Below, piece by piece: positions 13,160 to 32,591 of a stretch of DNA of 64,000 bases. This DNA comes from Curtobacterium sp. VKM Ac-2865. Lineage in GTDB: Bacteria; Actinomycetota; Actinomycetes; Actinomycetales; Microbacteriaceae. The translations under genes were made by a program, and so were the position numbers. The first letter of the stretch is position 1. Every line of letters begins with the position of its first letter. Location: assembly GCF_015350905.1 (NCBI RefSeq), contig NZ_JADKRZ010000003.1, forward strand, positions 186,001 to 250,000. Reading direction: 5' to 3'. Under the pieces are notes generated by a model. That model worked only from the letters and a program-made list of their open reading frames with translations. It ran no database searches and had not been told where the DNA came from.

Positions 13160-14449
13160 ATGAACAAGTCCTTCTGGACCAAGAAGGCCCTGGCCCTGCC
13201 GGTCTGCGCCGCGATCGTCCTCGGCGGCGTCGCCATCGGCACCGTTCCCGCCATGGCCGACCCGGCCGACCTCAAGGTCACCAGCCAGACCGTCACCGGC
13301 GGCGTCCTGACCCTCAAGGGCCTCGGCACCCCCGGCGAGAACGTGATCCTGCAGAAGGGCTTCCCGGCGGAGCGCTTCCCGATCGCCGCCGACGGCACCT
13401 GGACGATCACCTACACGCTCCCCGACACCGCGGCGCACACCTACGAGCTCGACCAGCAGAACGGTCTGAACTCCGACGGCAGCACCACGATCACCGTCGC
13501 CGCGCAGGTCGCCTTCGCCATCACGAGCCACACGGTCTCCGGCCGCACGATCACGGCGTCCGGCACCGGCACCCCCGGCAACACGGTGCAGATCGACCCG
13601 CAGTCGGCCCCGATCGCCCGCACCCGCATCGACGGCAACGGCAACTGGTCCTTCACGTACGAGATCCCCGCGAGCGCCGGCACCAGCACGGTGACGTACA
13701 ACGTGCTCGAGGAGAACAACAACTTCCAGGTCCAGGCGCAGGGCAGCTTCACCGCCGCCGCCGAGGCAGCGACCCCGGCCGCGCAGTTCTCGCTGACCAC
13801 CCCGAAGAACGGCACGACCGTCGGGTCGCGCACCGTCACCTTCACGGGCACCGGCACCCCCGGCGACCTGGTCAACACCCTGAACGCCGCGGGCGACCGC
13901 GTCGCGCCGCAGGTGCTCGTCGCGGCCGACGGCTCATGGACCACCACGGGCACCTTCGCCGACGACGCGCCCGTCGTGCAGAACCTGTCCGTCAACCAGG
14001 TCGGTGGCGGCCAGGGCCAGGGCACCGTGTCCTTCACGATCACCCTGCCGGCAGCGGAGACCGCCCCGGTCGCCACGCCCCTGACGCTGGTCACCCCGAC
14101 CGACGGCTCCAAGGTCGCGTCGCGCACCGTGACCTACTCGGGCAAGGGCACCCCCGGTGACGCGATCGCCGTGGTCAGCTCCGCCGGTGACGTCGTCGCC
14201 CCGGCCACCATCGTGGCGGCGGACGGCTCGTGGACCACCACGGGCACGTTCTCCGACTCGGCGGCGACCACGCAGGACCTGACGGTCGGAGAGGTCGACG
14301 CCGACCTCACCGTCGTCGACTCGATCGACTTCTCGATCATCCTGCCCGCCGTCGCGACCGGCACCACGCCGGGTACCGGCACCGGCACCGGCACCGCGCC
14401 GGTCACCGGCACCCGTCCGGCCGGCACCCTCCCGGTCGTCGCAGGCTAG
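13160..14449 (+). CDS. Secreted protein with four tandem Ig-like repeats and LPVVAG C terminus
   Basis: A 429-residue exported protein: signal peptide about residues 1-34 (basic start, hydrophobic core, cleavage after PAMA). Four repeats of about 95 residues follow, each with a GTGTPG-type turn and a DGxWTxTxTxxD strand (DGTWTITYTLPD, DGNGNWSFTYEIP, DGSWTTTGTFADD, DGSWTTTGTFSDS). They resemble bacterial Ig-like adhesive domains. A Thr/Gly/Pro-rich tail ends TRPAGTLPVVAG, with no membrane anchor after it. RBS GGAGAGAG precedes the ATG. It is followed by a terminator and a cell-wall L,D-transpeptidase. Function unknown; a surface or wall-associated role is likely. Confidence 0.85.
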   Translation: MNKSFWTKKALALPVCAAIVLGGVAIGTVPAMADPADLKVTSQTVTGGVLTLKGLGTPGENVILQKGFPAERFPIAADGTWTITYTLPDTAAHTYELDQQNGLNSDGSTTITVAAQVAFAITSHTVSGRTITASGTGTPGNTVQIDPQSAPIARTRIDGNGNWSFTYEIPASAGTSTVTYNVLEENNNFQVQAQGSFTAAAEAATPAAQFSLTTPKNGTTVGSRTVTFTGTGTPGDLVNTLNAAGDRVAPQVLVAADGSWTTTGTFADDAPVVQNLSVNQVGGGQGQGTVSFTITLPAAETAPVATPLTLVTPTDGSKVASRTVTYSGKGTPGDAIAVVSSAGDVVAPATIVAADGSWTTTGTFSDSAATTQDLTVGEVDADLTVVDSIDFSIILPAVATGTTPGTGTGTGTAPVTGTRPAGTLPVVAG

Positions 14450-14468
14450 TCACACCAGATCCGCAGAC

Positions 14469-14495
14469 GGGGGCACGACCATCGGTCGTGCCCCC
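14469..14495 (+). terminator. Intrinsic terminator hairpin
   Basis: A perfect 12-base stem (GGGGGCACGACC paired with GGTCGTGCCCCC) with a three-base loop lies 20 bases after the stop of the secreted repeat protein and just before the transpeptidase. There is no U-tract, which is normal for high-GC actinobacteria. Confidence 0.85.
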
Positions 14496-14523
14496 GTTCG
14501 CGTTCCATCGAAGGAACCACCGC

Positions 14524-15402
14524 ATGCCCCGCACCCGCACCGTCCGGGTGGCGAGCACCACGCTCGCCGCCGCGCTCCTGCTCACCCTCGGGCTGACCGC
14601 CTGCACCGCGCAGGACACCACGACGAGCACGAAGCCGACGACGACCCGGAGCGCGACGCCGACGGCGGACCCGTACCGAGCACCGAGCGCGGCGGTCGTC
14701 TCGACTCTGCCCGAGGCGGCGTACAACGCCGTCATCGGCGGACTGCTCCCCTACTACGACGCCAAGATCCCGAAGACCGCGGACGAGTCCTACACGATCG
14801 CCGCCGACGCGCCGCTCTACGGCGACGACCGCACGAAGCCGGTCGCGCGGCTCGCGGCGAAGAACTTCCTGGGTGACCCCACGGTGGTCGTCCCCGTCCA
14901 GGTGTCCGGCGCGTGGGCGATGGTGATGACGCCGGCACGCCAGGCGCTCCCGTCAGCCGTGAAGTCCGGCGCCGCAGCGCAGAGTGCCGCGTGGGTCCGC
15001 CGTGACCTGCTGACGAAGAAGACCTCGCTGCAGGACCACGTCGTGATCTCGGTCGGCAAGCAGACCGTCGCGATCGTGGGGTCGGACGGCAAGACCGTCA
15101 AGGAGTTCCCGGCCGGTGTCGGTGCGGGCGGCACCCCGACCCCGACGGGCGTGATCGGGTACATCCAGGCCCGCTACCTCGACCCGGCGCAGAACCAGAC
15201 GGTGCACCCCATCCAGCTGACGACGCTGCACTCGTCGGCGGCCGACGAACCGTACGGCGGCAACGACGGCGGTCTGATCGGCGTGCACTACGAGTCCGTC
15301 GCCCGCGGTGCGGTGTCGCACGGGTGCGTCCGACTCGACGGTGCCGCCGTCGACGCGGTCAACGCCCTGCCCCTCGGCACGGTCGTGCAGATCGTCGCCT
15401 AG
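14524..15402 (+). CDS. Lipoprotein L,D-transpeptidase (YkuD family)
   Basis: 292 residues. The signal peptide ends in the lipobox LGLTAC, predicting lipidation at Cys26 or so, followed by a Thr-rich linker. The C-terminal YkuD domain (about residues 170-292) has HVVISVGKQTVAIVG at its start, GTPTPTGVIGYI and the catalytic SHGCVRL motif. Such enzymes make 3-3 peptidoglycan cross-links or attach proteins to the wall from the outer face of the membrane. RBS AAGGA lies upstream of ATG 14524. Its neighbour upstream is the exported repeat protein, which could be a wall protein. Confidence 0.93.
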   Translation: MPRTRTVRVASTTLAAALLLTLGLTACTAQDTTTSTKPTTTRSATPTADPYRAPSAAVVSTLPEAAYNAVIGGLLPYYDAKIPKTADESYTIAADAPLYGDDRTKPVARLAAKNFLGDPTVVVPVQVSGAWAMVMTPARQALPSAVKSGAAAQSAAWVRRDLLTKKTSLQDHVVISVGKQTVAIVGSDGKTVKEFPAGVGAGGTPTPTGVIGYIQARYLDPAQNQTVHPIQLTTLHSSAADEPYGGNDGGLIGVHYESVARGAVSHGCVRLDGAAVDAVNALPLGTVVQIVA

Positions 15403-15491
15403 CGATCGGCCCCGTCGCCCGACGCTGGACCCACTCTCGGCATCCGACGAGCAGCGTTGGCCTCCCAGACCCACGACGACAAGGAGCACCA

Positions 15492-15665
15492 ATGAGTGAC
15501 CTCGGTGACAAGGCGAAGGACTTCCTGGACAGCGACAAGGGCGAGAAGGCGACGGACGCCGGTCTCGACAAGGCCTCGGACGCGGCCGACAAGGCCACCG
15601 GTGGTGGCCACGGCGACCAGATCGACAAGGCGGCGGACGCCGCCGACGGCAAGATCGGTCACTGA
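15492..15665 (+). CDS. MT0933-like antitoxin-family small protein, no adjacent toxin
   Basis: 57 residues starting MSDLGDKAKDFLDSDKGEKA and containing the TGGGHGDQIDKAADAADGK tail. This charged, Lys/Asp/Ala-rich sequence matches what I know of the MT0933-like antitoxin family (also called Rv0909-like). RBS AAGGAG is well placed. No toxin gene is next to it, so an antitoxin role is doubtful here and it may act as a small stress protein. It ends just before a perfect P44 palindrome. Confidence 0.75.
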   Translation: MSDLGDKAKDFLDSDKGEKATDAGLDKASDAADKATGGGHGDQIDKAADAADGKIGH

Positions 15666-15679
15666 CCGGCACGACGAAC

Positions 15680-15719
15680 GACGGGAGGCTCCCCACCAGC
15701 TGGTGGGGAGCCTCCCGTC
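15680..15719. repeat. Palindromic element P44, copy 2 (perfect 40-base palindrome)
   Basis: GACGGGAGGCTCCCCACCAG is followed directly by its exact reverse complement. It lies 15 bases after the stop of the small antitoxin-like gene and before the convergent 56-codon gene, so it probably terminates both. Confidence 0.85.
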
Positions 15720-15738
15720 TGTGCTCGTGGTTCCTGGA

Positions 15739-15909
15739 TCAGCCGCGGAAGAAGTCGGCGTAGCTGGGGTCGCCCACCGGCTGGTTGTGGCCCGGCTGCG
15801 CGAGGCGCTCCTCGACCATCGCCTGGATGACGTCCGGCGGGGTGAGCCCACGGCGGCGCCACTCGAGGGGGTTCTGACGGAGCTGCATCAGGGGGTTCGT
15901 CGCTGCCAT
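15739..15909 (-). CDS. Small basic/acidic protein of 56 residues
   Basis: An ATG at 15909 opens 56 codons on the minus strand: it begins MAATNPLMQLRQNPLEWRR and ends PVGDPSYADFFRG. The residue mix is balanced and unlike the Arg/Pro-rich translations of non-coding frames in this genome, and the C-terminal palindrome serves as its terminator. I do not recognise the family; similar short proteins with an NPLxWRRRGLTPxDV pattern may exist in relatives. No ribosome site stands out (GGAGCC is four bases before the ATG). Confidence 0.55.
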   Translation of the reverse strand: MAATNPLMQLRQNPLEWRRRGLTPPDVIQAMVEERLAQPGHNQPVGDPSYADFFRG

Positions 15910-16015
15910 GGCTCCACCGTGGCACCGTGTCGCTAGTTTGTCTAACTACCTGTCCGAGAGCCGCACTCAGAGGTCCCCCGGGGCGGTCCGGGTGCGTTCA
16001 CGGGACAGGGACGCG

Positions 16016-16076
16016 ATCGAGGGAGCAGCAATCGTCGGGCCCGGGGGTGCGACCCGACGATTCCTGCTCCCTCGAT
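16016..16076. terminator. Large hairpin terminator after the subtilase gene
   Basis: Two 24-base arms, starting ATCGAGGGAGCAG and ending CTGCTCCCTCGAT, pair with a single mismatch around a 13-base loop. The hairpin starts 20 bases beyond the subtilase stop codon (minus strand), where a terminator is expected. Confidence 0.8.
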
Positions 16077-16095
16077 GTGGAGCGAGCGTTTGGTG

Positions 16096-19000
16096 CTAGC
16101 GCTTGGCCACCACTGCGGTCTGGGCGGAGGTCGCCGAGCCGTTCTGGTAGCCCTTCGCCGACGCGGTCACCCGGACCTGGAAGCGGTGTCCCGCGTCCGA
16201 GGAACCGAGCTTGTACGTCTTCTCGTCGGCACCCTCGACGGCGACGCCGTCACGGAGCCACTGGAAGGCGTACGTGACACCGCGGGCGTTCCAGTCGCCG
16301 GGCTTGGCGGTCAGCTTCTTGCCGACCGTCGGTGTGCCCGACACGGTCACCGCGCTGCCCTCGCGGAGCGCCAGGACCGGTGCCGCGACCGAGGTCGACA
16401 GCACGTCCGCCTGGTCGCCGACCGCGTTGTGCAGGTGCAGCAGGAGGACCCGGGGGGTCGTCGTGCTGTCAGCGGCACGGGTCACCTGGAGCGCACCGGT
16501 GTCGGAGAACAGCACGCCGGCAGTCCCGCCCTGGGCGAACGCGAGCCCGGGTGCGGACGGGTCGAACGTGGCCGTCGAGGTCTCGTCGACCACCGCCGAA
16601 CCGCTCGTCGCCTGGGCCGGTGCGTACGCCGACTCGGTGAGCACCGAGTAGTCGAACGCTCCGGTGACGCCGATGGCCTGCTGCGAGACCGTCAGCACCT
16701 TCACCGCGCTGTCGAACGTGTTGACGTCCTGCCCGGGCGCCCCGCCGTTCAGCGGCTGCGCGTCGAGCGTCTTCCCCGTGGCGAGGTCGATCGTCGTCGC
16801 GAGGGTGGCGTCCACCGCCGCCGACTTGGCGTCGTACAGCAGGTAGTCCGGCGTGCCGTCGCGGTTCGCGTCGATGAGCACCTCGACGTTGGTCACGGCG
16901 CCGGGGTTGGCGTCGGGACCGGCCGTCTGCACGCCGAACGCGAGCGTGCCGTCAGCCGCACTCGCACCGAACGTGCGCACGTCGGCCGCCTGCAGCGACT
17001 GCTTCGCCGAGCCGTCCGGGAACGACTCCTGCGGGTCGGTGCCGCCGAGGACGAACGGGGCCACGAGGGCACCGTTGACTCCGCGACCGGCCAGCTCGAG
17101 GTCGGCCGTCGACGATGCCGCAGCGAAGGTGACGTCCGAACCGTGCACCGCGCTGACCGCCTTCGGGGCTGCGTAGGTCGCCAGGCGCAGCGGGTTGTAC
17201 CGCTTCTCCGTCGGCGTGAACGTCACGAGACCGGTGGCCGCGGCGACGAACTCCCGCTGGTAGCCCTGCTCGACCGACTCCTGGGTGGGGTCGATCGTGC
17301 GGGACAACTTCGTCGGGTCGGCGATCGTCATCGTCAGGGTGACGGTGGCGGTGCCGTGCGGGACGACCGTGACGCGCGGCTTGTCGACCGAGAACGCGAC
17401 GCCGCCCTGGGCGACGCGGGACTCGTAGGCCACGTCGTACGTGTGGGGTCGGCCGTCGGTGTTCCGGATCTGCAGGGTGCGCTTCTCGGTGGTCGGCGAG
17501 GCGACCTCGACGACGCCGAACGACGCCGTGACGAGCTGGTCGTTCTCGACGCTCCGCACCGTGGTGCCGGCGGTGACCGCCTGGAGCGCGTCGACGCGGC
17601 CGGTGCCCTGTCGGAGCAGCGTGGCGGTGCCGTCACCGTCGCGGACGTCGTGCGTCGCCGTGTTCATCAGTGTCGCCTTGACGTCGGGAGCCGACCACGT
17701 CGGGTGGGACTCGAACGTGAGCGCGGCGATGCCCGCCACGTCCGGCGTCGCCATCGAGGTGCCGCTCATCGACATGCGGCCGTCACCGGTGCCGTTGGCC
17801 GCGGAGATCACGTTGACCCCGGGGCCGGCGATGTCCGGCTTGACGATGTCGTCGAACGAACCGTGGACACCACGGCTGGTGAACTGCGCGAGCGTGTTCA
17901 CCGCGTCGGCGTCGGTCGCGAGCTGGAAGCCCTTGAGCTCGTCGGCGAACTGCACGTGCAGGGTCCCGGCCTGGGCAGCGGCCTGGAGGCTCGCCGCGCT
18001 GTCCTTGGTCAGTTCGGCACCCGGGATGGTCGTGTTCCCCGCGATGCCGCTGTCGAAGGTGTTGATCGTCCCGGCGAGCAGGACGCCGACACCGCCGGCG
18101 GCCTGGACGTTGTTGAACCGGACACCGGAACCGCACTCGAGGGCGCCGTCCGTCCACTTCAGCCAGACGACCTTGCCCGTGACGGCTGCGGCGTCCGCGG
18201 CACTGAACGCGGCACACCCGTCGATGTTCGTGGTCGGGACGACGACGTCGCCCTCGACCGGCAGCGTGCCCTGGTAGTTCTGCGAGTACTGCGCGGCGTA
18301 GGTCTTCGCGACGTCCGCCGGGGCGGTCGCGCGGACACCGTCGAACAGGCTCTGGCCGGTGGCGCTCGCGGCGACCGTGAGGGCGCCCTCCGCGTTGCCC
18401 GGCGAGCCGCCGATGTCGGTGAAGTCGTCGGCGTTGCCCGAGGCGATCACGGGCAGGACACCGCGGGCGGTGAGCGCGTCGATCTTCGCGTTGTCGGGGT
18501 CGTCCGGTGCGCCGTAGTCGGAGCCGAGCGACAGGTTGAGGACGTTGATGTCCTTGCCCTCGGTGAGCGCCTGGCCCACCCAGTCGAGCGCGGCGCCCGT
18601 GACGTCGGTCGAACCGCCGGCGTCACCGAAGACCTTGAGGGCGTAGAGGCCGGCCTCGGGCGCGGTGCCCGGACCGATCCACATGTCCTGGACCTTCTGC
18701 GCGGTCAGCTTCTTGTAGCTGCCCGTGAAGGTCGCCTTGTCGGCGGTCAGGCCGTAGCCGGCGATGGTGCCGGAGACGTGCGTGCCGTGATCGCCGCCCT
18801 TGCCGTCGATGGGGTTCTCGTCCGGCGCCGGGGTCGGGTCGTACGCGGGGCTCGACGGGTCGGCGTTGTACGTGGGGCCGGCGAAGTCGTGGCCGCCGAG
18901 GAACTTGTCGGCGTCGAACCAGCTGGGGTCCGGCGCACTCGTGCTCGCCAGTGCCGCGTCGTAGGCAGCCGCCGTGCCGGGGCCACCGAAGTCGGCCTGC

Positions 19001-19695
19001 GTGTAGTCGAGGCCGGTGTCGAGCACGGCGACGTTGACGCCCTTGCCCGTGTGGCCGGTCTGCTGCCAAGCGTCGAGCGAGCGCGTGTAGATGTCGCTCG
19101 CCGCGTTCTTCGGGGCGACGCCGTCGACGCCGGGCTCGACCGCGTCGGGGTCGACGCCGCTCGGGGTGGAGCCGGCGGCCTCGGTGCTGGTCGGGTCGAC
19201 GATCTTCTTCGGCGTCAGCGGGATGACGCTGGCGACGTCGGACCGCTCGGCGATCTCCTTGAGCGCCGAGACGTCCGCGACGACGGCGACACCGGGGACG
19301 GTGTACTCGGTCGCGTAGAGCTCGGTCGCGTCACCGTCGGCCTGCTTGACCGCGGCGCGGACCTTCGCGACCGTCGAGGTCACCGCGGACAGCCGCTGCT
19401 TGGCTGCCGTCGACGGGGTCTTCGAGCGGGTGAGGTCACCGCCCTTGGCCTTGGCGTCGACCGCCAGGACGCCCTCGCCGGTGGTCCGGACGAAGGCGGC
19501 GACGGTCTTCTGGGGCTTCGCGTCCCGCAGCGGTGCCGCGAGCTTGAGGTCGGCGACCGACAGGCCGGTGGGCGCGGCCGAGGCCGTCCCGCCGAGGGCC
19601 AGGCCGCCGCACGTCAGCGCGCCGGCCGCGACGAGCGCGACCGTGATCCTGCTGATGCTGCGGCGTCTCGGGTCTGGTGAAGTGGGTGGGCGCAC
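16096..19695 (-). CDS. Giant secreted subtilisin-like serine protease
   Basis: 1199 residues. Signal peptide 1-40 (cleavage after TASA), an inhibitor-I9-like propeptide to about 165, then the S8 catalytic domain with Asp226 in VAVLDTGLD, His306 in GDHGTHVSGTIAG, oxyanion Asn420 in ASGN and Ser646 in SMSGTSMATPDVAG. A PA-type insertion lies at about 490-600 between the histidine and serine blocks. Fibronectin/Fn3-like regions follow, and a C-terminal domain with VSGTPTVGKKLTAKPGDW and YAFQWLRDG matches an actinobacterial cell-surface repeat. Start GTG 19695 has GGAG eight bases upstream. It degrades extracellular protein. No neighbour suggests a specific target. Confidence 0.95.
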   Translation of the reverse strand: MRPPTSPDPRRRSISRITVALVAAGALTCGGLALGGTASAAPTGLSVADLKLAAPLRDAKPQKTVAAFVRTTGEGVLAVDAKAKGGDLTRSKTPSTAAKQRLSAVTSTVAKVRAAVKQADGDATELYATEYTVPGVAVVADVSALKEIAERSDVASVIPLTPKKIVDPTSTEAAGSTPSGVDPDAVEPGVDGVAPKNAASDIYTRSLDAWQQTGHTGKGVNVAVLDTGLDYTQADFGGPGTAAAYDAALASTSAPDPSWFDADKFLGGHDFAGPTYNADPSSPAYDPTPAPDENPIDGKGGDHGTHVSGTIAGYGLTADKATFTGSYKKLTAQKVQDMWIGPGTAPEAGLYALKVFGDAGGSTDVTGAALDWVGQALTEGKDINVLNLSLGSDYGAPDDPDNAKIDALTARGVLPVIASGNADDFTDIGGSPGNAEGALTVAASATGQSLFDGVRATAPADVAKTYAAQYSQNYQGTLPVEGDVVVPTTNIDGCAAFSAADAAAVTGKVVWLKWTDGALECGSGVRFNNVQAAGGVGVLLAGTINTFDSGIAGNTTIPGAELTKDSAASLQAAAQAGTLHVQFADELKGFQLATDADAVNTLAQFTSRGVHGSFDDIVKPDIAGPGVNVISAANGTGDGRMSMSGTSMATPDVAGIAALTFESHPTWSAPDVKATLMNTATHDVRDGDGTATLLRQGTGRVDALQAVTAGTTVRSVENDQLVTASFGVVEVASPTTEKRTLQIRNTDGRPHTYDVAYESRVAQGGVAFSVDKPRVTVVPHGTATVTLTMTIADPTKLSRTIDPTQESVEQGYQREFVAAATGLVTFTPTEKRYNPLRLATYAAPKAVSAVHGSDVTFAAASSTADLELAGRGVNGALVAPFVLGGTDPQESFPDGSAKQSLQAADVRTFGASAADGTLAFGVQTAGPDANPGAVTNVEVLIDANRDGTPDYLLYDAKSAAVDATLATTIDLATGKTLDAQPLNGGAPGQDVNTFDSAVKVLTVSQQAIGVTGAFDYSVLTESAYAPAQATSGSAVVDETSTATFDPSAPGLAFAQGGTAGVLFSDTGALQVTRAADSTTTPRVLLLHLHNAVGDQADVLSTSVAAPVLALREGSAVTVSGTPTVGKKLTAKPGDWNARGVTYAFQWLRDGVAVEGADEKTYKLGSSDAGHRFQVRVTASAKGYQNGSATSAQTAVVAKR

Positions 19696-19811
19696 GTGTT
19701 GCTCCGTCCGGTGAGCTGGGGGAATGCCTCTGAAGCTATGTGGCTCCTCTCAGGGCAGGGAGTCGGCACTTTGGGGGACGGCACCCGAACGGGGCACATG
19801 AATCCGTTAAG

Positions 19812-19846
19812 TTGCACAGGTGTGTGCAGGTTATTAGGCTGGGGAC
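19812..19846 (+). promoter_or_regulatory. TetR promoter with overlapping operator palindrome
   Basis: TTGCAC (19812-19817), a 17-base spacer and TAGGCT (19835-19840) form a good promoter ending six bases before the ATG, so the message should be leaderless. The inverted repeat TGCACA-GGTG-TGTGCA (19813-19828) overlaps the -35 and spacer and is a likely autoregulatory operator for the TetR protein. Confidence 0.65.
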
Positions 19847-20500
19847 ATGACCGGATCCGAGACACCCCTGCGGGCTCCGCGCCGCGACGCCACCGAGAAC
19901 CGGGCAGCCCTGATCGAGGCCGCGAAGACAGCACTGCAGCGGGATCCGGACGCCTCGCTCGAGACGATCGCGGCCGACGCCGGGCTCTCCCGACGTGCCG
20001 TGTACGGGCACTTCCCCTCGCGTGACGACCTCGTCCGAGCCGTCGTGACCGCGGGCGCGGCGCGGATCCTCGCCGCCATGCCGACCACGACCGACCTCGG
20101 GGAACTCCCGCCCGCAGCGCGCATCGCGGCCATCGCCGTCACCCTCTGGTCCGAGGTCTCCCACGTCCGGTCGATGGCGCGCATCGCCGTGCGGGACCCG
20201 TTCGGCGCCTCCGTCGCCGAGGTCTTCGCGCCGCTGCGGACCCAGGTGCGCGAAGCGTGCGCACTCGGCATCGCCGACGGTTCGATGCGCTCGGACGTCG
20301 ACGCCGCCACGCTCGGACGCCTGGTCGAGGGCGCGTGCATCGCGGTGCTCGACGAGGCCACCCGCTCCGGCACGTCCGACGAGGACGGCCGCCGCATGGT
20401 GGTCGTCTCGGCCCTCGGCATGGCGGGCATCGACTGGCGCACCGCGATGCTCACCGAACCCGTCAGCTCCGTCAGCTCCGTCTCCGAGGAGTCAGCATGA
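19847..20500 (+). CDS. TetR-family regulator of the YhgE/Pip operon
   Basis: 217 residues. The N-terminal helix-turn-helix is typical of TetR: ENRAALIEAAKTAL, then LETIAADAGLSRRAVYGHFPSRDDLVRAV. The C-terminal ligand domain is divergent, as usual. Its TGA overlaps the ATG of the next gene (ATGA), so it is the first gene of a three-gene operon and probably represses it through the palindrome upstream. The inducer is unknown. Confidence 0.9.
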   Translation: MTGSETPLRAPRRDATENRAALIEAAKTALQRDPDASLETIAADAGLSRRAVYGHFPSRDDLVRAVVTAGAARILAAMPTTTDLGELPPAARIAAIAVTLWSEVSHVRSMARIAVRDPFGASVAEVFAPLRTQVREACALGIADGSMRSDVDAATLGRLVEGACIAVLDEATRSGTSDEDGRRMVVVSALGMAGIDWRTAMLTEPVSSVSSVSEESA

Positions 20501-23420: not shown

Positions 23421-23462
23421 CGGGGCCCGGTGCCCGGTGCCCGGGCGGGCCGCGCGCTCTCG

Positions 23463-24344: not shown

Positions 24345-24387
24345 CCAGGGCCGAGCGTCGTCCCGGAGCGGTCCTCGCCCCGCGCGA

Positions 24388-24435: not shown

Positions 24436-24489
24436 CCGACGCAGACGAACTCCGTCGCTCCGCAGCCACCGCGGAGATCGCATCCGCGC

Positions 24490-25941
24490 CTACCCGTGCG
24501 CCTTCTGCGTGTAGATCGCGCCCGTGGAGAAGTCCTCCTCGAGCTGCTCCAGCGAGCGGCCGTTCGTCTCCGGCACCTTCGTGATCGCGAAGACCAGTGC
24601 CAGGGCGTTCAGCACCGCGAAGATGAAGAACGTCGTGGAGATGCCCGTTGCGCTCACCACGATCGGGAACAGCGTCGACACCGCGAAGTTCGTCAGCCAG
24701 AGGATGAGCACCGTGAGCCCCATGCCCACGCCGCGGAGCTTGAGCGGGAAGATCTCGGAGAGCATCAGCCAGACGAGGGGTCCGATCGTGCCCTGCATCG
24801 TGCCGACGAAGCAGATGACGAACACGAGCACGACGACTGCACGCAGTGTGCCCTCGGGCAGGACGAGTGACGACAGCCCGATCAGCAGGTGGAACACCGT
24901 CGTGCCGGTGAACCCGAAGATCAGCATCGAGCGACGCCCGAAGCGGTTGATGACGCGCAGGGCCACGACCATCGCGAGCACGGCGATGATGCCCGACCCG
25001 ACGTTGGCGATCAGGGCCGTCGAGCCGGAGAAGCCGGACTCGGTGAGCACCTGCGTGCCGTAGTACATGATCGAGTTGATGCCGGTGAGCTGCTGCGCGA
25101 CGGCCAGCCCGATCCCGATGAACAGGATCTTCCGGAGCCACGGCGCCGCCAGCAGGTCGCTGATGCGGGCGCGCTTGGCTTCGGCCTCCTGTGCCGCGAG
25201 CTCCTCGACCTCGGCCATCTCGGCCTCGGCCCGGTCGGCTGCGCGTATCTGCTTCAGCACGGCGAGTGCGTCCTCGCGCCGGCCCTTGCCGAGCAGCCAC
25301 CGCGGGCTCTCGGGGACGGTGAACATCCCGATGAACAGGGCGATCGCCGGCAGCACCGCGACGGAGAGCATGTAGCGCCAGACGTTGCCGTCCTCGCTCC
25401 AGATCGTGCCGATGACCGCGTTGATCGCGAAGGCCGCGAGCTGCCCGGCGACGATCATCAGCTCGTTGCGGCTGACCAGCCCACCGCGGTTCTCGGTGGG
25501 GGCGAGCTCGGCGAGGAACACCGGCACCGTGACCGACGCTCCGCCGACCGCGACGCCGAGGAACAGCCGCGACACCATGAGGAACTCCCACGACGGCGCG
25601 AGCACACAGGCCACCGCGGCGAAGAAGAACAGCACGGCCAGGGTGTTGATCGTGGGCTTGCGGCCCCAGGCGTCGGAGATGCGTCCGATGAAGAACGCCC
25701 CGATCGCCGCGCCGATCAGGATGGACGAGGTCATGAAGCCCTCGGCCGTGGCGTTCGGCACGAAGCCCGAGTCGAGCATCGGCTGCAGGGCACCGTTGAT
25801 GACGCCGGTGTCGTACCCGAAGAGCAGCCCGCCGAAGGTCGCGATGACGGCGACGACGCCGAGTCGCTTGGTGTGCGGGCCGTTCACGAGCGGGGGCAGT
25901 GCCCCCGTGCTGGATGCTGGGCCGGTCTGCGCGGTTGCCAC
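24490..25941 (-). CDS. MFS sugar porter (sugar:H+ symporter)
   Basis: 483 residues with twelve hydrophobic segments and the sugar-porter signatures: GGLLFGYDTGVINGAL in TM1, GRISDAWGRKPT and VINRFGRRSML in the 2-3 and 8-9 loops, PESPRWLLGKGRREDA after TM6, and PETNGRSLEQLEE after TM12. GTG start at 25941 has GGAGG seven bases upstream. A LacI-type regulator is divergent, so sugar-controlled expression is likely. The sugar is not deducible; the dehydrogenase downstream is only loosely associated. Confidence 0.93.
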   Translation of the reverse strand: MATAQTGPASSTGALPPLVNGPHTKRLGVVAVIATFGGLLFGYDTGVINGALQPMLDSGFVPNATAEGFMTSSILIGAAIGAFFIGRISDAWGRKPTINTLAVLFFFAAVACVLAPSWEFLMVSRLFLGVAVGGASVTVPVFLAELAPTENRGGLVSRNELMIVAGQLAAFAINAVIGTIWSEDGNVWRYMLSVAVLPAIALFIGMFTVPESPRWLLGKGRREDALAVLKQIRAADRAEAEMAEVEELAAQEAEAKRARISDLLAAPWLRKILFIGIGLAVAQQLTGINSIMYYGTQVLTESGFSGSTALIANVGSGIIAVLAMVVALRVINRFGRRSMLIFGFTGTTVFHLLIGLSSLVLPEGTLRAVVVLVFVICFVGTMQGTIGPLVWLMLSEIFPLKLRGVGMGLTVLILWLTNFAVSTLFPIVVSATGISTTFFIFAVLNALALVFAITKVPETNGRSLEQLEEDFSTGAIYTQKAHG

Positions 25942-26129
25942 TTGTCCTCCGTTGGTCAAGGAAACGGTCTCACGTCGGGCAGCAGTGCTGCGCCGCCGCG
26001 GGCTCATGTCATGACAATAAGACCAACTCGCCGAAAAGGAAAACCCCCGATCAGCGTTGGAGCGCGCCATCGGCAACGGGACGACCCAGGAGGCACCGCT
26101 ACGATCGAACCACCCGAGCCGAGAGGTCG
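25942..26129. promoter_or_regulatory. Divergent control region of the sugar porter and its LacI regulator
   Basis: The 188-base spacer contains a GTCATGAC palindrome (26008-26015) in an A/T-richer stretch that ends GACAATAAGACC, a candidate operator/promoter. On the plus strand TACGAT at 26100-26105 is a plausible -10 for the regulator, whose ATG is preceded by GAGAGG. Confidence 0.45.
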
Positions 26130-27137
26130 ATGATGACTGTGGGAGACGCCAGACCAGCGACGATCTACGACGTCGCCGCCCGAGCAGGGGTGTCGAAGTC
26201 GCTCGTCTCCCTCGTGCTGCAGCGGTCCCCACGAGTGAGCGACCAGCGTCGAGCGGCCGTGCTCCAGGCGATCCAGGAGCTCGACTACCGCCCCTCCACC
26301 GCGGCCGTCTCGCTCGCGGGCACCCGCAGCCGGACCATCGGCGTCGTGCTCGACGACTTCCGCAACCAGTGGTTCGTCGACCTGCTGACCGGGCTCCGCG
26401 AGTCCCTGCAGGACCAGGGCCACCGCCTCGTCGTCGCCGACCGCTTCCTCAACACCGGACTCGACGCCTCACCCGTCGAGGGCTTCCTCTCGATGCGCGT
26501 CGAGGGCATCGTCATCGCCGGCGAACCCGACACCGACCTCGCCGTCCCCGCGTCCACCCCGATCGTCATCGCCGGCGGCCGTGCGGCGATCCCCCGCGCC
26601 GACACCGTCGCGAACGACGACCGCGCCGGCGGTCGGATGGCCGCCGAGCACCTGCTCGGCCTCGGCCACACCACGCTCGGCTTCGTCGGCGCGCGGTCAG
26701 CAGCCGCCGTCGAGCGGCGGGCCGGGTTCGAGGCCGGGGTCGCGGACGGCCGCACCGGCGCGACGGTCGCCACCACGATCCTCCCGGAGGAGCTGACCGA
26801 GGACGCCGGCATGCGCGCCGCCCGCGCGCTCTTCGACGAGCACCCCGACGTCACCGCGGTCTTCGCGGCCAACGACGTGATGGCGCTCGGCGCCATGTCG
26901 GAGCTGGCCGCTCGCGGCCTGCGCGTGCCCGAGGACGTCTCGGTCATCGGCTACGACGACACCCCGATCGCCGCGACGCGCTTCGTCGGCCTGACGAGCA
27001 TCGACGACCGCAGTGTCGAGATCGGCCGCGGGGCCGGCGAGCGCCTGCTCGCCCGGATCGCTGACCCGGGCCTGGTCGCCACCGAGGTCCTCGTCGAACC
27101 CCACCTGGTCGCGCGCCGCACGACCGCCCCGCGCTGA
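26130..27137 (+). CDS. LacI-family transcriptional regulator
   Basis: 335 residues. The N-terminal DNA-binding region ATIYDVAARAGVSKSLVSLV (residues 10-29) and hinge LDYRPSTAAVSLAG are typical. The periplasmic-binding-protein-like core follows, with TIGVVLDDFRNQWF, TDTVANDDRAGGRMAAEHLL-type segments and VFAANDVMALGAM, FVGLTSIDDRSVEIGRGAG. Divergent from the sugar porter, it presumably represses that gene until its sugar binds. Two adjacent ATGs (26130, 26133) are possible starts. A half P44 repeat follows at 27147. Confidence 0.93.
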   Translation: MMTVGDARPATIYDVAARAGVSKSLVSLVLQRSPRVSDQRRAAVLQAIQELDYRPSTAAVSLAGTRSRTIGVVLDDFRNQWFVDLLTGLRESLQDQGHRLVVADRFLNTGLDASPVEGFLSMRVEGIVIAGEPDTDLAVPASTPIVIAGGRAAIPRADTVANDDRAGGRMAAEHLLGLGHTTLGFVGARSAAAVERRAGFEAGVADGRTGATVATTILPEELTEDAGMRAARALFDEHPDVTAVFAANDVMALGAMSELAARGLRVPEDVSVIGYDDTPIAATRFVGLTSIDDRSVEIGRGAGERLLARIADPGLVATEVLVEPHLVARRTTAPR

Positions 27138-27203
27138 CCCACCCCCGGCCTGGAGGCTCGGCTGCGGCCCGCCCCGCCGGCTCCGGCATCCGACGTGGCC
27201 GGG

Positions 27204-27848
27204 TCAGGGCGTCGCGTGCCGGACGATCCAGGTGTGCATGACGATCGCGGCGGCGGCCGAGGCGTTGATGCTCCGCGTCGAGCCGAACTGGGCGATCTCG
27301 AGGTGCCCGTCCGCGCCGGCGACGGCCTCGTCGGTCAGCCCGGGGCCCTCCTGCCCGAACAGGAACACGCAGCGCTCCGGCACCTCGGCGGTCTCGATCC
27401 GATCCGCGCCCGGGGTGTTGTCGATCGCGATCACGGGGCGGCCCTCGGCGCGCATGGCCTCGAGGAACGCGGCCACGTCCGGGTGGTTCCGCACGTGCTG
27501 GTACCGGTCGGTGACCATCGCGCCGCGGCGGTTCCAGCGACGGCGCCCGATGATGTGCACGGTGCCGGCCAGGAACGCGTTGGCGCTCCGCACGATCGAC
27601 CCGATGTTCAGGTCGTGCTGCCAGTTCTCGATCGCCACGTCGAACCCGTGCCGGCGGGTGTCGAGGTCGGCGACGATGGCCTCCATCGACCAGTACCGGT
27701 AGGCGTCGACGACGTTGCGGGTGTCGCCGAGCCGCAGCAGCTCGGGGTCGAGTCGGGGGTCGTCCGGCCAGGGCTCCGGGTGCGGTCCGACCCCGTGCGT
27801 GGTGCGCTCGTGCGAGGGCTCGGGCGCTGGCGCGGGCTGGTCGGTCAC
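27204..27848 (-). CDS. SpoU/TrmH-family RNA 2'-O-methyltransferase
   Basis: 214 residues. SPOUT-fold motifs 1-3 are clear: NWQHDLNIGSIVRSANAFLA, CVFLFGQEGPGLTDEAV and GSTRSINASAAAAIVMH. These form the knotted S-adenosylmethionine site for ribose methylation of tRNA or rRNA. The N-terminal 45 residues are Pro/Glu/His-rich and variable. Start GTG 27848 has CGGAG upstream and overlaps the TetR stop codon by four bases, so it is translated with that regulator. The RNA target cannot be assigned. Confidence 0.9.
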   Translation of the reverse strand: MTDQPAPAPEPSHERTTHGVGPHPEPWPDDPRLDPELLRLGDTRNVVDAYRYWSMEAIVADLDTRRHGFDVAIENWQHDLNIGSIVRSANAFLAGTVHIIGRRRWNRRGAMVTDRYQHVRNHPDVAAFLEAMRAEGRPVIAIDNTPGADRIETAEVPERCVFLFGQEGPGLTDEAVAGADGHLEIAQFGSTRSINASAAAAIVMHTWIVRHATP

Positions 27849-28534
27849 GACTCCGAGGGTACGGCGGCCGGGGAGCCCACGGCGGCCACGCGGGCCTCGA
27901 TGCCCGCGAGCAGGATGTCGAGCCCGAGCGCGAAGCGGTCGTCGTACGAGTGCTCGCCGAGGATCTCCCCCACGAGCTGCTGCCGCTCCGGGCGCCCGGC
28001 CTCGGAGTCGCCGCGCCCGACCTGGACGCCCGCGTGGCCCACCACGAAGTCGTAGACGACGAAGAACGTGTACATCGCCTCGGCGTCGGGCAGCCCCGCG
28101 GCACGCAGCGCCTCCACCACGGTGGCGAGGACGACGTCTGACTCGCTCGACACCAGCGGCGCCCGGCGACTGTGGGACTCGAGCACGAGCGGGTGTGTGG
28201 TCATCAGCTCGCGGAAGGTCACGGCGAAGGTCCGCACGACGTCCTGCCACGCGTCCGGCCACACGAACGTGGCGGTGAACTCGTCCACGGTGCGGCGGAC
28301 GAGCTCGGCGTGCAGGTCGTCGAGGCCGCCGATCGTCCGGTGGACGGTCATCGGGGCGACGCCGAGTCGGAGCCCGAGCGCGCGGAAGGACAGGCGGTCG
28401 AGGCCGTCCTCGTTCGCGATGGCGGTCGCGGCGTCGACCACCTGTTCGCGGCTCAGGACGTTCGGGCGCCCGCGACGACGCGGCTGGGTCGCGGGACCGG
28501 GGGACGTGGCCGTGGCGGTCGGGTCGACGAGCAC
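27845..28534 (-). CDS. TetR-family regulator
   Basis: 229 residues. The helix-turn-helix is at about residues 28-75: LSREQVVDAATAIANEDGL, LSFRALGLRLGVAPMTVHR. The C-terminal domain (ELMTTHPLVLESHSRRAP and following) resembles the TetR_C-type domain of tetracycline-repressor-like proteins. GTG 28534 has AGGAGGAG six bases upstream. It is co-transcribed with the RNA methyltransferase, an odd pairing with no obvious regulatory meaning. The target genes are unknown. Confidence 0.88.
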   Translation of the reverse strand: MLVDPTATATSPGPATQPRRRGRPNVLSREQVVDAATAIANEDGLDRLSFRALGLRLGVAPMTVHRTIGGLDDLHAELVRRTVDEFTATFVWPDAWQDVVRTFAVTFRELMTTHPLVLESHSRRAPLVSSESDVVLATVVEALRAAGLPDAEAMYTFFVVYDFVVGHAGVQVGRGDSEAGRPERQQLVGEILGEHSYDDRFALGLDILLAGIEARVAAVGSPAAVPSES

Positions 28535-28616
28535 GAGCTCCTCCTCGGATCGGGACTGTCCGGAAGACCCTAGCGAGGTCGGTCTCGACGCACCTGAGCG
28601 TGGCAGGGACGGCCAG

Positions 28617-28629
28617 TAGGGTGAGCCCC
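28617..28629 (+). promoter_or_regulatory. TAGGGT -10 box of a probable leaderless promoter
   Basis: TAGGGT (28617-28622) ends seven bases before the ATG at 28630. There is no normal ribosome-binding site in the gap, so the transcript probably begins at or beside the start codon. Confidence 0.5.
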
Positions 28630-29427
28630 ATGGCATCCCGCGACGAAGTCGAGTGCTGGCTGACGGACATGGACGGCGTGCTCGTGCACGAGAACCACGC
28701 ACTGCCAGGAGCACCCGAGCTGATCCAGCAGTGGCTCGACGAGGGCACCGAGTTCCTGGTGCTCACGAACAACTCGATCTTCACCCCGCGCGACCTCAGC
28801 GCCCGGCTCCGCTGGTCCGGCATCGACGTGCCCGAGGACCGCATCTGGACCTCCGCCCTCGCGACGGCCGACTTCTGCAAGTCCCAGATGCCCGGCGGCT
28901 CCGCGTTCGTGATCGGCGAGGCCGGCATGACCACCGCCCTGCACGAGGCCGGCTTCATCATGACCGAGACCTCCCCCGACTACGTCGTCGTCGGCGAGAC
29001 GCGGAACTACTCGTTCGAGGCGATCACCAAGGCCGTCCGGCTGATCCGCGACGGTGCCCGCTTCATCGTCACCAACCCCGACGCGACGGGCCCGAGCGCC
29101 GAGGGCGTCCTGCCGGCCACCGGGGCCATCGCCGCGATGATCGAGAAGGCCACCGGCAAGCAGCCCTACGTCGTCGGCAAGCCGAACCCGATGATGTTCC
29201 GCTCGGCGATGAACCGCATCGGCGCCCACTCGGAGAACACCGGCATGATCGGCGACCGGATGGACACCGACGTGCAGGCCGGCATCGAGGCCGGGCTGCA
29301 CACCGTGCTCGTCATGACCGGCATCAGCGACCAGGCCGAGATCGACCGCTACCCGTTCCGCCCGAGCGAGGTCATCTCCGGCGTCCACGAGCTCGTCCGC
29401 GCGGAGCCCATCGAAGTCGAGATGTAG
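28630..29427 (+). CDS. HAD-IIA phosphatase (NagD-like)
   Basis: 265 residues with the subfamily IIA order: motif I LTDMDGVLVHEN (residues 11-22), motif II FLVLTNNS, the large cap domain, GKPNPMMFRSAM and motif IV MIGDRMDTDVQAGIEAG. NagD-type enzymes hydrolyse nucleotide or sugar phosphates. The methyltransferase that follows starts four bases after the stop, so they are probably one transcript. The substrate is not predictable. Confidence 0.92.
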   Translation: MASRDEVECWLTDMDGVLVHENHALPGAPELIQQWLDEGTEFLVLTNNSIFTPRDLSARLRWSGIDVPEDRIWTSALATADFCKSQMPGGSAFVIGEAGMTTALHEAGFIMTETSPDYVVVGETRNYSFEAITKAVRLIRDGARFIVTNPDATGPSAEGVLPATGAIAAMIEKATGKQPYVVGKPNPMMFRSAMNRIGAHSENTGMIGDRMDTDVQAGIEAGLHTVLVMTGISDQAEIDRYPFRPSEVISGVHELVRAEPIEVEM

Positions 29428-29431
29428 GACG

Positions 29432-30238
29432 GTGCGCTGGGACCCAGCCCGCTACGCGGCCTTCACCGACGAGCGGTCACGGCCGTTCCACGACCTGGTC
29501 GCCCGCATCAGTGGTCCCTTCCAGGACGGCCAGGAGGCTCCCCGTCGCGTCGTCGACCTGGGCTGCGGTCCCGGGGCCCTCACGGCCACCCTCGCCGACC
29601 GCTGGCCGACGGCCCAGGTCGTCGGGGTCGACTCCTCGGCGGAGATGCTGGCGGACGCGGCACCGCTGGCCGATGACCACTCCCGGCTGTCGTTCGAGCT
29701 CGGCGCCATCGAGGACTGGACACCCGGCCCCGAGGACGACGTCGTCGTGACGAACGCGGCGCTGCAGTGGGTCCCGTCCCACACCACGATCCTGCCGCAG
29801 TGGCTGGAGGCGATGCCCGACGGCGCCTGGTTCGCGATGCAGGTGCCCGGCAACTTCGACTCCCCCTCGCACGCGCTCATGCGGGCCGTGGCTTCCGAGG
29901 GCCCGTGGGCGTCGGCGCTCGACGGCGTGCTGCGTGCCGACCCGGTCCTCGACGGTGCCAGCTACCTCGACCTGTTCGAGTCGGCCGGCTTCGCGACGGT
30001 GGCGTGGGAGACCACGTACCTGCAGCTGCTGTCGGGCGAGGACCCGGTGCTCGCCTGGGTCCGGGGCACGGGACTCCGACCGGCCCTCGCCGCGCTCGAC
30101 ACCGCCGACCCCGAGGGCGGGCTGACCGCCGCGTTCGAGGACGCCTACGCCGCCCGACTCCGGCAGGCGTACCCGAGCGGCCCCCACGGCACGGTCTACC
30201 CGTTCCGCCGCGTGTTCGCCGTCGGCCGCAAGCGCTGA
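29432..30238 (+). CDS. tam: Trans-aconitate 2-methyltransferase
   Basis: 268 residues, close to the family's usual 255-260. MRWDPARYAAFTDERSRPFHDLVARI matches (in shorter pieces) the conserved WDPxxYxxFxxxRxRPxxDLL start of Tam. VVDLGCGPGALTATLADRWP is the S-adenosylmethionine loop, AALQWVPSH the post-I motif, and GTVYPFRRVFAVGRK a conserved end. Tam methylates trans-aconitate, an inhibitor of the citric acid cycle. Start is GTG 29432. Confidence 0.9.
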   Translation: MRWDPARYAAFTDERSRPFHDLVARISGPFQDGQEAPRRVVDLGCGPGALTATLADRWPTAQVVGVDSSAEMLADAAPLADDHSRLSFELGAIEDWTPGPEDDVVVTNAALQWVPSHTTILPQWLEAMPDGAWFAMQVPGNFDSPSHALMRAVASEGPWASALDGVLRADPVLDGASYLDLFESAGFATVAWETTYLQLLSGEDPVLAWVRGTGLRPALAALDTADPEGGLTAAFEDAYAARLRQAYPSGPHGTVYPFRRVFAVGRKR

Positions 30239-31019
30239 CCGGACGCCCCTCGGCCTCCTGAGCGGTTTCCTCCCGGCGCGATGACGGATCTGGTTCACGG
30301 AACGCGGGCCGAGACCACCAGATCCGTCACCGCCGAGAACGAAGACCGTCCCGCGTCGACGACGCCGACGGCGCTGCGGAGGGGACGGGGACAGCCATGG
30401 CAACGGCAACGGCGGAACCCACCCGTTTCCTCCCGGCGCGATGACGGATCTGGTTCACGGAACGCGGGCCGAGACCACCAGATCCGTCACCGCCGAGAAC
30501 GAAATCCGTCCCGCGGCGCCGACGGCGACGGCGACGGGGACGGGGACGGGGACGGGGACGGGGACGGCGGAACCCACCCGTTTCCTTCCGGCGCGATGAC
30601 GGATCTGGTTCACGGAACGCGGGCCGAGACCACCAGATCCGTCACCGCCGAGAACGAAATCCGTCCCGCGGCGCCGACGGCGACGGCGACGGGGACGGGG
30701 ACGGGGTCGGCCACTGCAACGGCGGAACTCACCCGTTTCCTTCCGGCGCGATGACGGATCCGGTTCACGGAACGCGGGCCGAGACCACCAGATCCGTCAC
30801 CGCTGAAAACGAAGTCCGCCCTCGCCCTCGCCGTCGACGGCGGGTGGCGGTAGCGGTGGCGGTGGCGGTGGCGGTGGCGGTGGCGGTGGCGGTGCGAGGG
30901 TCGCGGCGGTGAGGCCACGCTCGCTGGCGCGGTCCCGTGCAGGCGAGTCGCGCCTCCTGGCCGGGTGGGCCGGCACCAGCCGACCGACGCGAGGTGCGCG
31001 TCGGTCGGCTGGTCTCTGC
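30239..31019. repeat. Non-coding repeat array: four H48 units in 155-160 base tandem blocks plus hexanucleotide tracts
   Basis: Blocks begin with GTTTCCTCCCGGCGCGATG at 30265, 30425, 30580 and 30735 (steps of 160, 155 and 155). Each opens with the 48-base hairpin (30282-30329, 30442-30489, 30597-30644, 30752-30799; arms TGACGGATCTGGT and ACCAGATCCGTCA) followed by CACCGCCGAGAACGAA and a low-complexity tail. Tails include GGGGAC hexamers (30534-30567) and, after the last unit, GGTGGC hexamers (30843-30893). The step is not a multiple of three and reading frames change between copies, so it is not a protein repeat. Confidence 0.9.
30975..31013. terminator. Perfect 17-base-pair hairpin terminator
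   Basis: ACCAGCCGACCGACGCG pairs exactly with CGCGTCGGTCGGCTGGT around a five-base loop. It sits seven bases beyond the stop codon of the PAP2 gene (minus strand) and is its terminator. Confidence 0.88.
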
Positions 31020-32591
31020 TCAGCCGCTGACGACGGGCAGGTGGACGCCGGTCGGGACGGTGCCCGCGGTGCCCGGGTCCGACACCGGAGCCGGTGCGAC
31101 CGGGGTGCCGGGCGTGACCGGAGTCGGGGTCGGCGTGGGGGTGGGCGTCGCCGCAGGGGCGAGGACGCGTGCCTGACCACCGGTGGAGACGACCTTCACG
31201 GAACCGTCCTGGGCGACGGCGACCGTCGCGCTGGTGGCGGCGGCGAGGTCCAGGCGCTCCCACGACCCGTTTGCGGACCCGGACTGATCGAGCGGGAAGC
31301 CCGACGCGATCTCGGTCTGCGCGAGCACCGCGGTGCGCTGGGCGGCAGTGAGCGTCGGGAACGTGGTGAGCAGCAGGTTCTCGGCGCCGGTGGGGACGCT
31401 GGCGGGCAGGCCGGTGGTGCCGGTCTTGGCGAAGCCGTAGGTCAGGCGCTCCTGGTAGACCTTGACGGCCGAGGCGCGGTCCGTGACGACCTGCGCGGTG
31501 CCACCCGGGATCGCTGCCCCGCCGTAGGGGTCGTCCTGGTACGGCTTCTCGGCCGTGATGCACTTCGAGAGCGTGGTGCCGCAGGCGGTCTCGAGGTAGC
31601 TGACGAGCTCCTTGCGGGCCGGCTCGAGGACAGCGGTGCGGTACGACGCGTCGGACCAGCGGGCGGCGAGTGCAGCCTCACCGTCGATGCGCCCGCCCAT
31701 GATGTCGAGCGGGTAGTGCACGCCGAGGACGATGCGGTCGTTGCCGGCCTCGGAGGTGCGGGCCAGGATCTCGGGCGCGAGCTCGGGCACGAGCGTGGCG
31801 AGGGTGATGCCCGCCTGGTACGCGGTCGTGGTGTGGCCACTGGGGAACGAGCCGCCCGTGCAGATGCCCTTCGTGCCGTAGCCGGCGTCGAGCACGACGT
31901 CGTTCGGCGAGAACTCCTTCGTGGTGTCCGTCTGCGGTGCCACGCGGGTGACGTCGAGGCTGCCGTCGGCGCTCGCGTACGCCTTGCCGACGCGGTTCGG
32001 TGCGACCGAGGAGCTGTTCACCGTCGTGGGCGCACAGCCGACCTGGTCGTCGCCGGCGGGCAGCGTGGCCGTCGTCGACGCCGGCAGGTACGGCCGCGGG
32101 TAGCTGAAGTGCGCCTTCGCGGTGCCGGTGCCGACGTAGGCGCCCGACGTGCCGTTCGAGCTGTTGATCAACGCGCTCGTCAGGGGGAGCGCCCCGGACG
32201 CGCGGCCCTGGACGTAGGCCTTCTCGAGCACGTCGCCGAGCCCCTGCGACACGGTGGACGACTGGTCGTACGCAGTGTTCGTCGCGTTCTCGTACTCGGA
32301 GTCCTGGAGCGCCTTGAACTGCTGCGCCGCGGTGGCGTGCTGGTTGATCCAGGACGTCAGTGCGTCGTTCTGGGCGAGGGTCGCGGGCCCGACGACGGTG
32401 CCGTGCAGGTCGTTCGCCCCGCTGGACTGCCAGAAGGAGTCGTAGCCGCTCAGCAGCGAGACGAGGTCAGGCGGGGTGCTGTCGCTCGGGTAGGTGGCGG
32501 CGGAGGCCGCGAGGGGGTTGCCGACGACCAGGGAGGTCGCGATCGCTGCGACCGTCACCCCGGTGGCGATCGCGCGTGCAGATGAACGCAT
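31020..32591 (-). CDS. Secreted PAP2-family acid phosphatase with LPVVSG C terminus
   Basis: 523 residues. Signal peptide 1-32 (cleavage after AASA), then the vanadium-haloperoxidase/PAP2 core with the three phosphatase motifs KAHFSYPRPY, SFPSGHTTTAYQAG and RIVLGVHYPLDIMGG. A further domain of about 170 residues follows, then a TPTPTPTPTPV-rich linker ending TVPTGVHLPVVSG at the very C terminus. It is exported and has no second membrane segment. It likely releases phosphate from extracellular organic phosphates. The tail resembles that of the secreted repeat protein at 13.2 kb. Confidence 0.9.
   Translation of the reverse strand: MRSSARAIATGVTVAAIATSLVVGNPLAASAATYPSDSTPPDLVSLLSGYDSFWQSSGANDLHGTVVGPATLAQNDALTSWINQHATAAQQFKALQDSEYENATNTAYDQSSTVSQGLGDVLEKAYVQGRASGALPLTSALINSSNGTSGAYVGTGTAKAHFSYPRPYLPASTTATLPAGDDQVGCAPTTVNSSSVAPNRVGKAYASADGSLDVTRVAPQTDTTKEFSPNDVVLDAGYGTKGICTGGSFPSGHTTTAYQAGITLATLVPELAPEILARTSEAGNDRIVLGVHYPLDIMGGRIDGEAALAARWSDASYRTAVLEPARKELVSYLETACGTTLSKCITAEKPYQDDPYGGAAIPGGTAQVVTDRASAVKVYQERLTYGFAKTGTTGLPASVPTGAENLLLTTFPTLTAAQRTAVLAQTEIASGFPLDQSGSANGSWERLDLAAATSATVAVAQDGSVKVVSTGGQARVLAPAATPTPTPTPTPVTPGTPVAPAPVSDPGTAGTVPTGVHLPVVSG

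Follow-up and report, generated by a model that had tools for sequence, protein, structure and literature searches.

Two unrelated exported proteins of Curtobacterium sp. VKM Ac-2865, encoded in the 64,000-nucleotide stretch analysed here (contig NZ_JADKRZ010000003.1, positions 186,001 to 250,000; hereafter the window), end in LPVVAG or LPVVSG immediately before the stop codon, and the first of them is followed directly by the gene of a putative L,D-transpeptidase (LDT) of the YkuD family. Conserved gene pairs across the Microbacteriaceae suggest that these tails are probably C-terminal sorting tags for a dedicated YkuD LDT subfamily, that is, a sortase-like system with a different enzyme. We further give somewhat better than an even chance to the proposal that tagged cargoes, encoded in cassettes with their own LDTs, follow a second, sortase-independent route of covalent display on the monoderm wall, in which the protein C terminus would be the acyl donor and a soluble, anchorless tail would suffice.

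13160..14449, + strand: tagged protein with immunoglobulin-like (Ig-like) repeats (ATG at 13160, signal peptide, Ig-like repeats, Thr/Gly/Pro linker, LPVVAG-stop)
14429..14446, + strand: LPVVAG C-terminal tag of the Ig-like protein (stop codon at 14447-14449)
14524..15402, + strand: LDT, the proposed sorting enzyme (lipobox-like LTAC, linker, N-terminal beta domain, YkuD domain with SHGCVR)
31020..32591, - strand: exported, tagged PAP2-family phosphatase-like protein (ATG at 32591, HLPVVSG-stop)
31023..31040, - strand: LPVVSG C-terminal tag of the PAP2 protein (stop codon at 31020-31022)

The initial annotation had pointed out the shared ending, a Thr/Pro-rich linker before it and an LDT gene right after the first protein, and all three observations are borne out: LPVVAG-stop lies at 14429-14449 (+) and LPVVSG-stop at 31040-31020 (-), the C termini (Ig-like protein, TRPAGTLPVVAG; PAP2 protein, TVPTGVHLPVVSG) are each preceded by a Thr/Pro/Gly-rich linker, and the YkuD gene occupies 14524-15402. 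Shuffling the window removed the pattern LPVV[AS]G-stop entirely (0 matches in 100 shuffled sequences). The PAP2 domain scored above the Pfam cut-off, and the Ig-like protein gave a weak Big_13 match below it. Both proteins stop at the motif Gly and have no membrane helix with a positive tail after the motif, as a sortase-type signal would. The three frames 3' of each tag stop, inspected by eye, likewise contained no membrane helix with a charged tail, and the sole hydrophobic stretch 3' of the Ig-like gene is the LDT's own signal peptide in a different frame. For either gene, no membrane anchor that read-through or frameshifting past the stop might add was seen in the three frames.

The pairing of tag and enzyme carries most of the argument. 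A search of 84,980 species with an alignment of the LDT (A1), its candidates drawn from two peptide patterns, yielded 65 loci, all of them Microbacteriaceae by title save one metagenome-assembled genome labelled Gemmatimonadetes (L185), which is probably a misbinned contig; occurrence outside the family was assessed by this pattern-based scan alone. Every judgeable locus had a tagged partner (59/59), adjacent to the LDT in 58 and about 2 kb away in one, while six could not be judged because the LDT lay at a contig start (L139, L140, L144 and L168) or was broken (L185 and L189). The upstream gene on the same strand ended in the motif at 55 loci, giving 57 pairs (L146 has three); elsewhere, an LPKVSG partner adjoined the LDT (L158), an adjacent tagged partner accompanied an LDT cut by the contig end (L186), or the upstream tag was absent and a giant protein directly downstream ended in KEAHMPVVSG, as had been predicted before the rest of that locus was fetched (L148). 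As background, the loose tag expression fitted 9 of the 1,276 remaining coding-like frames of the LDT loci; four of the nine were further tags (L146, L158, L182 and L186) and five were not. The plasmid collection held a single LDT match at E 1e-10 (NZ_CP126264.1, 44% identity), which overlaps by 4 bases a preceding putative-Ig protein ending in RHLPVVSG, with what by eye we take to be propeller-like repeats; both checks made after the pairing rule had emerged, this plasmid and the L148 giant protein, gave tagged partners. Leifsonia sp. C5G2 (L146) carries tandem cassettes in the order tag-LDT-tag-LDT-tag-tag-LDT, with two tagged proteins before the last LDT. Starting from the tag instead, an LDT was found beside it in 14 of 16 contexts hand-chosen from the congeneric and family-wide pattern hits (13 directly and one, L099, with one gene between). 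The plasmid segment itself (NZ_CP126264.1, positions 1470-6702; L225) encodes a signal peptidase I, an Ig-like protein, a small protein, the tagged putative-Ig protein and the LDT, a cluster that looks like a surface-structure module.

The composition of the tails is consistent with a protein-level signal on diverse exported cargo. LPVVSG closes 35 of the 57 paired tails, LPVVAG 8 and variants 14; counted from the C terminus, the residues are Leu at -6 (54), Pro at -5 (57), Val at -4 (44; otherwise Ile, Arg, Thr, Leu or Lys), Val at -3 (56), Ser (45), Ala (11) or Asp (1) at -2, and Gly at -1 (57). The 35 LPVVSG tails are encoded by 14 distinct DNA sequences, with Ser from AGY (29) or TCC (6), and such varied spelling with both Ser codon families points to selection on the protein. 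The 30 residues before the tag consist of Pro, Thr, Gly, Ala and Ser to 75%, compared with 44% in background frames, and a home-made rule detected a signal-like N region in 56/57 partners versus 115/237 background frames. The partners fall into 11 BLAST groups, comprising PAP2 (17), Leifsonia-type exported proteins (13), Curtobacterium Ig-like proteins (9) and smaller ones, and, by sequence comparison, the tagged cargo appears to comprise about ten unrelated groups. Of ten partner representatives searched against Pfam, six had no match, whereas L137 was identified as a beta-propeller with Ig, L172 as an amidase and L135, weakly, as Big_13; in L145, a glutamyltranspeptidase match was placed where the stop-to-stop frame begins and may fall outside the gene. 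Cargo kinds across the Microbacteriaceae are PAP2, Ig-like, beta-propeller, amidase and DUF11 giant proteins. Mapping the 11 partner labels on the LDT tree required 10 changes, which is the minimum (quick tree method, with strong support for 15 of 53 inner branches), so LDT and cargo appear to travel together. The suggestion that the ending is a new C-terminal sorting tag is thus well supported, by about ten exported sequence groups and a single LDT subfamily adjacent to them or in the same genome.

We consider it extremely unlikely that the shared ending reflects chance or common descent of a C-terminal domain. The tail is inherited within each partner group, and a distant relationship links two of the 11, both of them Ig-like (L020), as descent would have it; the other groups, however, show no similarity at the BLAST threshold used, a rough composition-based expectation for C-terminal LPVV[AS]G is 0.003 per 3,500 proteins, or per genome, and the later checks on the L148 giant protein and the plasmid held.

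Enzyme and tag also co-occur across whole genomes. A1 scores were bimodal over 66 congeneric genomes (249-408 bits in 34, all other matches at or below 113 bits), and a stop-terminated tag match was present in 32 of the 34 LDT-bearing genomes versus 1 of the 32 lacking the LDT (Fisher P = 2.5e-15, nominal since the genomes are related). In the two LDT genomes without a tag match, G050 and G065, the LDT sits at the edge of its contig (L140 and L144), and the frame of the single tag match without an LDT (G013) looks non-coding. Among 16 named whole genomes picked for having the LDT, the pattern LP[VILMF][VI]xG gave 21 matches compared with 12 in the reversed control; two of these end in TGG, and all 19 with a real stop belong to LDT pairs, although for seven of the 19 the LDT was assigned from the pair list by coordinates and the short fetched locus showed no LDT motif. 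Tails outside this pattern occur in G371 (LPTVDG, L165) and in G358 (MPVVSG, besides a TGG match).

The same ending recurs in relatives of both window proteins. Pattern matches were found in 35 of the 66 congeneric genomes, or 33 after G044 and G045 were dropped because the apparent stop was TGG (Trp). Frames were inspected for 28 stop-terminated matches, and those beyond the 28 are matched letters only; by BLAST, 20 of the 28 are PAP2 relatives and 5 Ig-like relatives, and the other three are a PAP2 tail preceded by an apparent frameshift (L011, compare L151), a tagged 204-residue Pro-rich exported protein (L009) and the non-coding-looking frame of G013 (L013). Ig-like relatives keep LPVV[AS]G, and PAP2 relatives keep HLPVVSG even though the preceding linkers are hypervariable. 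No close PAP2 orthologue was found in the 32 LDT-less genomes, and the distant PAP2 proteins present in five of these (best 96 bits) are all untagged. Across the family, a loose pattern matched 97 of 299 genomes but was noisy, with many control matches too, and 20 fetched stretches comprised 9 exported tagged proteins, 3 cytosolic proteins and 8 short, unlikely or unrelated frames. Exported proteins with the ending occur in other Microbacteriaceae genera (L064, L070, L072, L073, L074, L075, L076 and L081); cytosolic proteins of another genus ending in GLPVVSG (L078, L079 and L080) are presumably rhodanese-like, and we take their ending to be a coincidence.

Within the source genome (3.73 Mb, 15 contigs), LPVV[AS]G-stop with Leu codons restricted to CTN matched only the two window proteins, and the reversed control gave none. 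The looser LP[VIM][ATVI]xx-stop gave 12 matches versus 39 in the control: the two known, six ending in TGG without a stop, and four with a real stop (L035, L037, L039 and L042), none of which was a convincing further tagged protein on inspection. Sharing of the ending by other exported proteins, on which the initial annotation had staked its proposal, therefore fails in this genome and holds among its relatives. One LDT of the tag-linked subfamily is present; the genome has two other YkuD genes, and no tagged gene lies within about 1.5 kb of either.

The initial annotation also likened the tail to a sortase LPxTG site cut off before its membrane anchor; on that view, a sortase might still handle it. 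The likeness to sortase systems extends to a C-terminal LP motif at the equivalent place on Sec-exported proteins, a Cys transpeptidase and a Gly just past the proposed cut, and the source genome has three sortase genes. We nevertheless consider a truncated sortase signal very improbable and the claim unsupported: the hydrophobic helix and positive tail are absent, the proposed enzyme is a YkuD protein and the end is LPxV[SA]G-COOH; ordinary LA[FY]TG signals with helix and Arg tail coexist in the source genome (7 of 20 loci inspected); no relative of its sortases turned up in any of the 81 LDT and tag loci; Val occupies the LPxTG Thr position in 56 of 57 tails; and a tag accompanies the LDT at every judged locus. 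Because the tag ends at Gly in several genera, a recent truncation is not indicated. At a separate source-genome locus (L005), a sortase gene lies directly 3' of the gene of an exported repeat protein.

The window LDT matched PF03734 (YkuD) at 53.9 bits against a cut-off of 23.4, and its nearest named relative, also from Curtobacterium, is 95% identical. S-H-G-C and the Arg are invariant across 47 alignment rows, and the plasmid copy has THGC. The structure model (predicted local distance difference test score 90.9) superposes best, among solved folds, on B. subtilis YkuD (4a1i/1y7m; Z 16.6, root-mean-square deviation 1.9 over 108-111 residues) and on LdtMt1 (Z 16.1), so that, as modelled, the subfamily keeps the YkuD fold and the catalytic SHGCxR motif and is a putative L,D-transpeptidase. 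It shares the catalytic fold (Z 14-17) and the HGC motif with LdtMt1, LdtMt2 and B. subtilis YkuD but only 17-28% identity over the aligned part, and we know of no tagged partner for any of these three. Passages of an LDT review describe the LdtMt enzymes as cross-linking peptidoglycan and YkuD as having no known role (PMC12729407). NCBIfam gave no name for the window LDT or the Ig-like protein, and no phage copy of the LDT was matched.

Under the proposed mechanism, the membrane-held LDT would bind the LPxV stretch of its cargo after Sec export, its Cys would attack the carbonyl of the penultimate L-Ser or L-Ala, and the terminal Gly, occupying the place of D-Ala4 of the stem tetrapeptide, would leave. 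The L-residue followed by achiral Gly-COOH would mimic the L,D bond cut by LDTs, and the protein thioester would pass to a peptidoglycan amino group, so that the protein would be tethered to the wall through its C-terminal end. We infer that an L-residue plus C-terminal Gly is the nearest ribosomal equivalent of the L-X3-D-Ala4-COOH end that LDTs cut; such mimicry would explain the extreme C-terminal position, the absent anchor, the final Gly and the small L-residue before it. Published excerpts report that LDTs exchange D-Ala4 for glycine (PMC10434034). Each LDT would mainly serve its neighbour and could act in trans, as for the PAP2 protein of the source strain. If the mechanism proved incorrect, the finding would reduce to a new gene pair of tag and enzyme.

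Several points weigh against this interpretation. Canonical donor stems have a D-Glu gamma-linkage before the L-residue, unlike V-[SA], and the known protein attachment by LDTs, in the parts of the review at hand, uses the protein as acyl acceptor and not as donor (PMC12729407). A lipobox-like site, detected with a simple expression, is present in just 24 of 57 LDTs (LTAC in the window copy). The partner in L182 (MPRVAG) lies about 2 kb upstream of the LDT with other genes between, the tag contexts L093 and L102 lack an adjacent LDT, and stop-terminated tags outnumber LDTs in 7 of 66 genomes (G000, G006, G024, G025, G026, G053 and G059); given these surplus and solitary tags, the LDT would need to work in trans. 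The loci are phylogenetically dependent and the genome sets overlap. The invariance of Pro and Gly is partly forced by the search expression, although every judged locus did have a fitting partner.

Three other roles for the LDT were weighed. The tail might be a non-covalent substrate mimic that recruits the LDT to a surface protein or holds it inactive, without transfer, which would suit its resemblance to a stem-peptide end and its being encoded together with the enzyme; we hold this to be rather unlikely because a linker rich in Pro, Thr, Gly, Ala and Ser and many different cargoes are typical of wall-anchored proteins and not of regulators, and because the catalytic Cys is invariant. Alternatively, the LDT could join a wall stem to a protein amine (N terminus or Lys), with the tail as an address only, which is the LDT protein-attaching chemistry described, in the sections consulted, for Lpp and proteobacterial outer-membrane proteins (PMC12729407, PMC12274547). 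Acceptor chemistry of this kind is improbable here since none of the 57 tails has Lys at -1 or -2, the alternation of Ser and Ala at -2 makes a Ser hydroxyl dispensable, and N-terminal attachment would need no C-terminal address. Finally, since water can attack the YkuD acyl-enzyme (PMC10434034, in part), the LDT might act as a carboxypeptidase that clips the tail Gly for maturation or release, with no anchoring; this is quite improbable because it leaves the wall-type linker and the use of one tag on many cargoes unexplained.

The proposed transpeptidase-mediated protein attachment by a C-terminal donor tail differs from the systems to which it is closest. LdtA/B/C, which attach Braun lipoprotein, and the LDTs attaching outer-membrane proteins (OMP/OutB) are likewise YkuD enzymes linking proteins to peptidoglycan (shown there, proposed here), but, according to portions of two papers, they belong to Gram-negatives and use the protein as acyl acceptor through a Lys epsilon-amine or an N-terminal amine (PMC12729407, PMC12274547). 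Here, the hosts are monoderms, the protein C terminus lacks Lys and would itself act as donor, and the substrate is encoded next to its proposed enzyme. Exosortase/PEP-CTERM and rhombosortase/GlyGly-CTERM systems also pair a dedicated enzyme with a short C-terminal tag that recurs on many unrelated exported proteins; their tags include a membrane helix and their enzymes are integral membrane proteins, and the tails inspected here end in Pro/Gly/Thr/Val-rich sequence with no such helix. Neither the string LPVVSG nor a comparable system was found in the literature covered, which left out most subscription journals and bioRxiv. The tag falls outside two known classes, sortase-type signals and, as judged by the C-terminal Lys, Lpp-type LDT attachment.

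If the proposal is correct, these would be, to our knowledge, the first LDTs to treat proteins as donors and the first case of LDT protein anchoring in Gram-positives. An anchorless six-residue tail read by a neighbour-encoded transpeptidase would change wall-protein prediction in Actinobacteria, give LDTs a role in bacteria with group-B peptidoglycan and possibly serve as a new tool for ligation, the tag being very small. A Gram-positive trafficking review, in the sections available, mentions no route but sortase for attaching proteins covalently to the wall (PMC12445088), and the corresponding portions of an LDT review describe protein attachment by LDTs for Gram-negatives (PMC12729407). Group-B peptidoglycan is recorded, in the excerpt consulted, as B2-gamma in Subtercola and B2-beta in Frondihabitans (PMC5945732).

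Two further features of the window adjoin the tagged genes.

30265..30818, unstranded: 155-bp tandem repeat, 3.5 copies, in the syntenic place of the relatives' PAP2-adjacent LDT gene
14463..14501, + strand: strong predicted RNA hairpin in the gap separating the Ig-like gene from the LDT gene (14450-14523 folds at -41.3 kcal/mol, z -7.9)

A search beside the window PAP2 gene gave no significant match to an LDT remnant, so the PAP2 tag of this strain would need an LDT in trans. The hairpin, predicted for the window only, is a possible attenuator that would set the ratio of substrate to enzyme, with more substrate made than enzyme.

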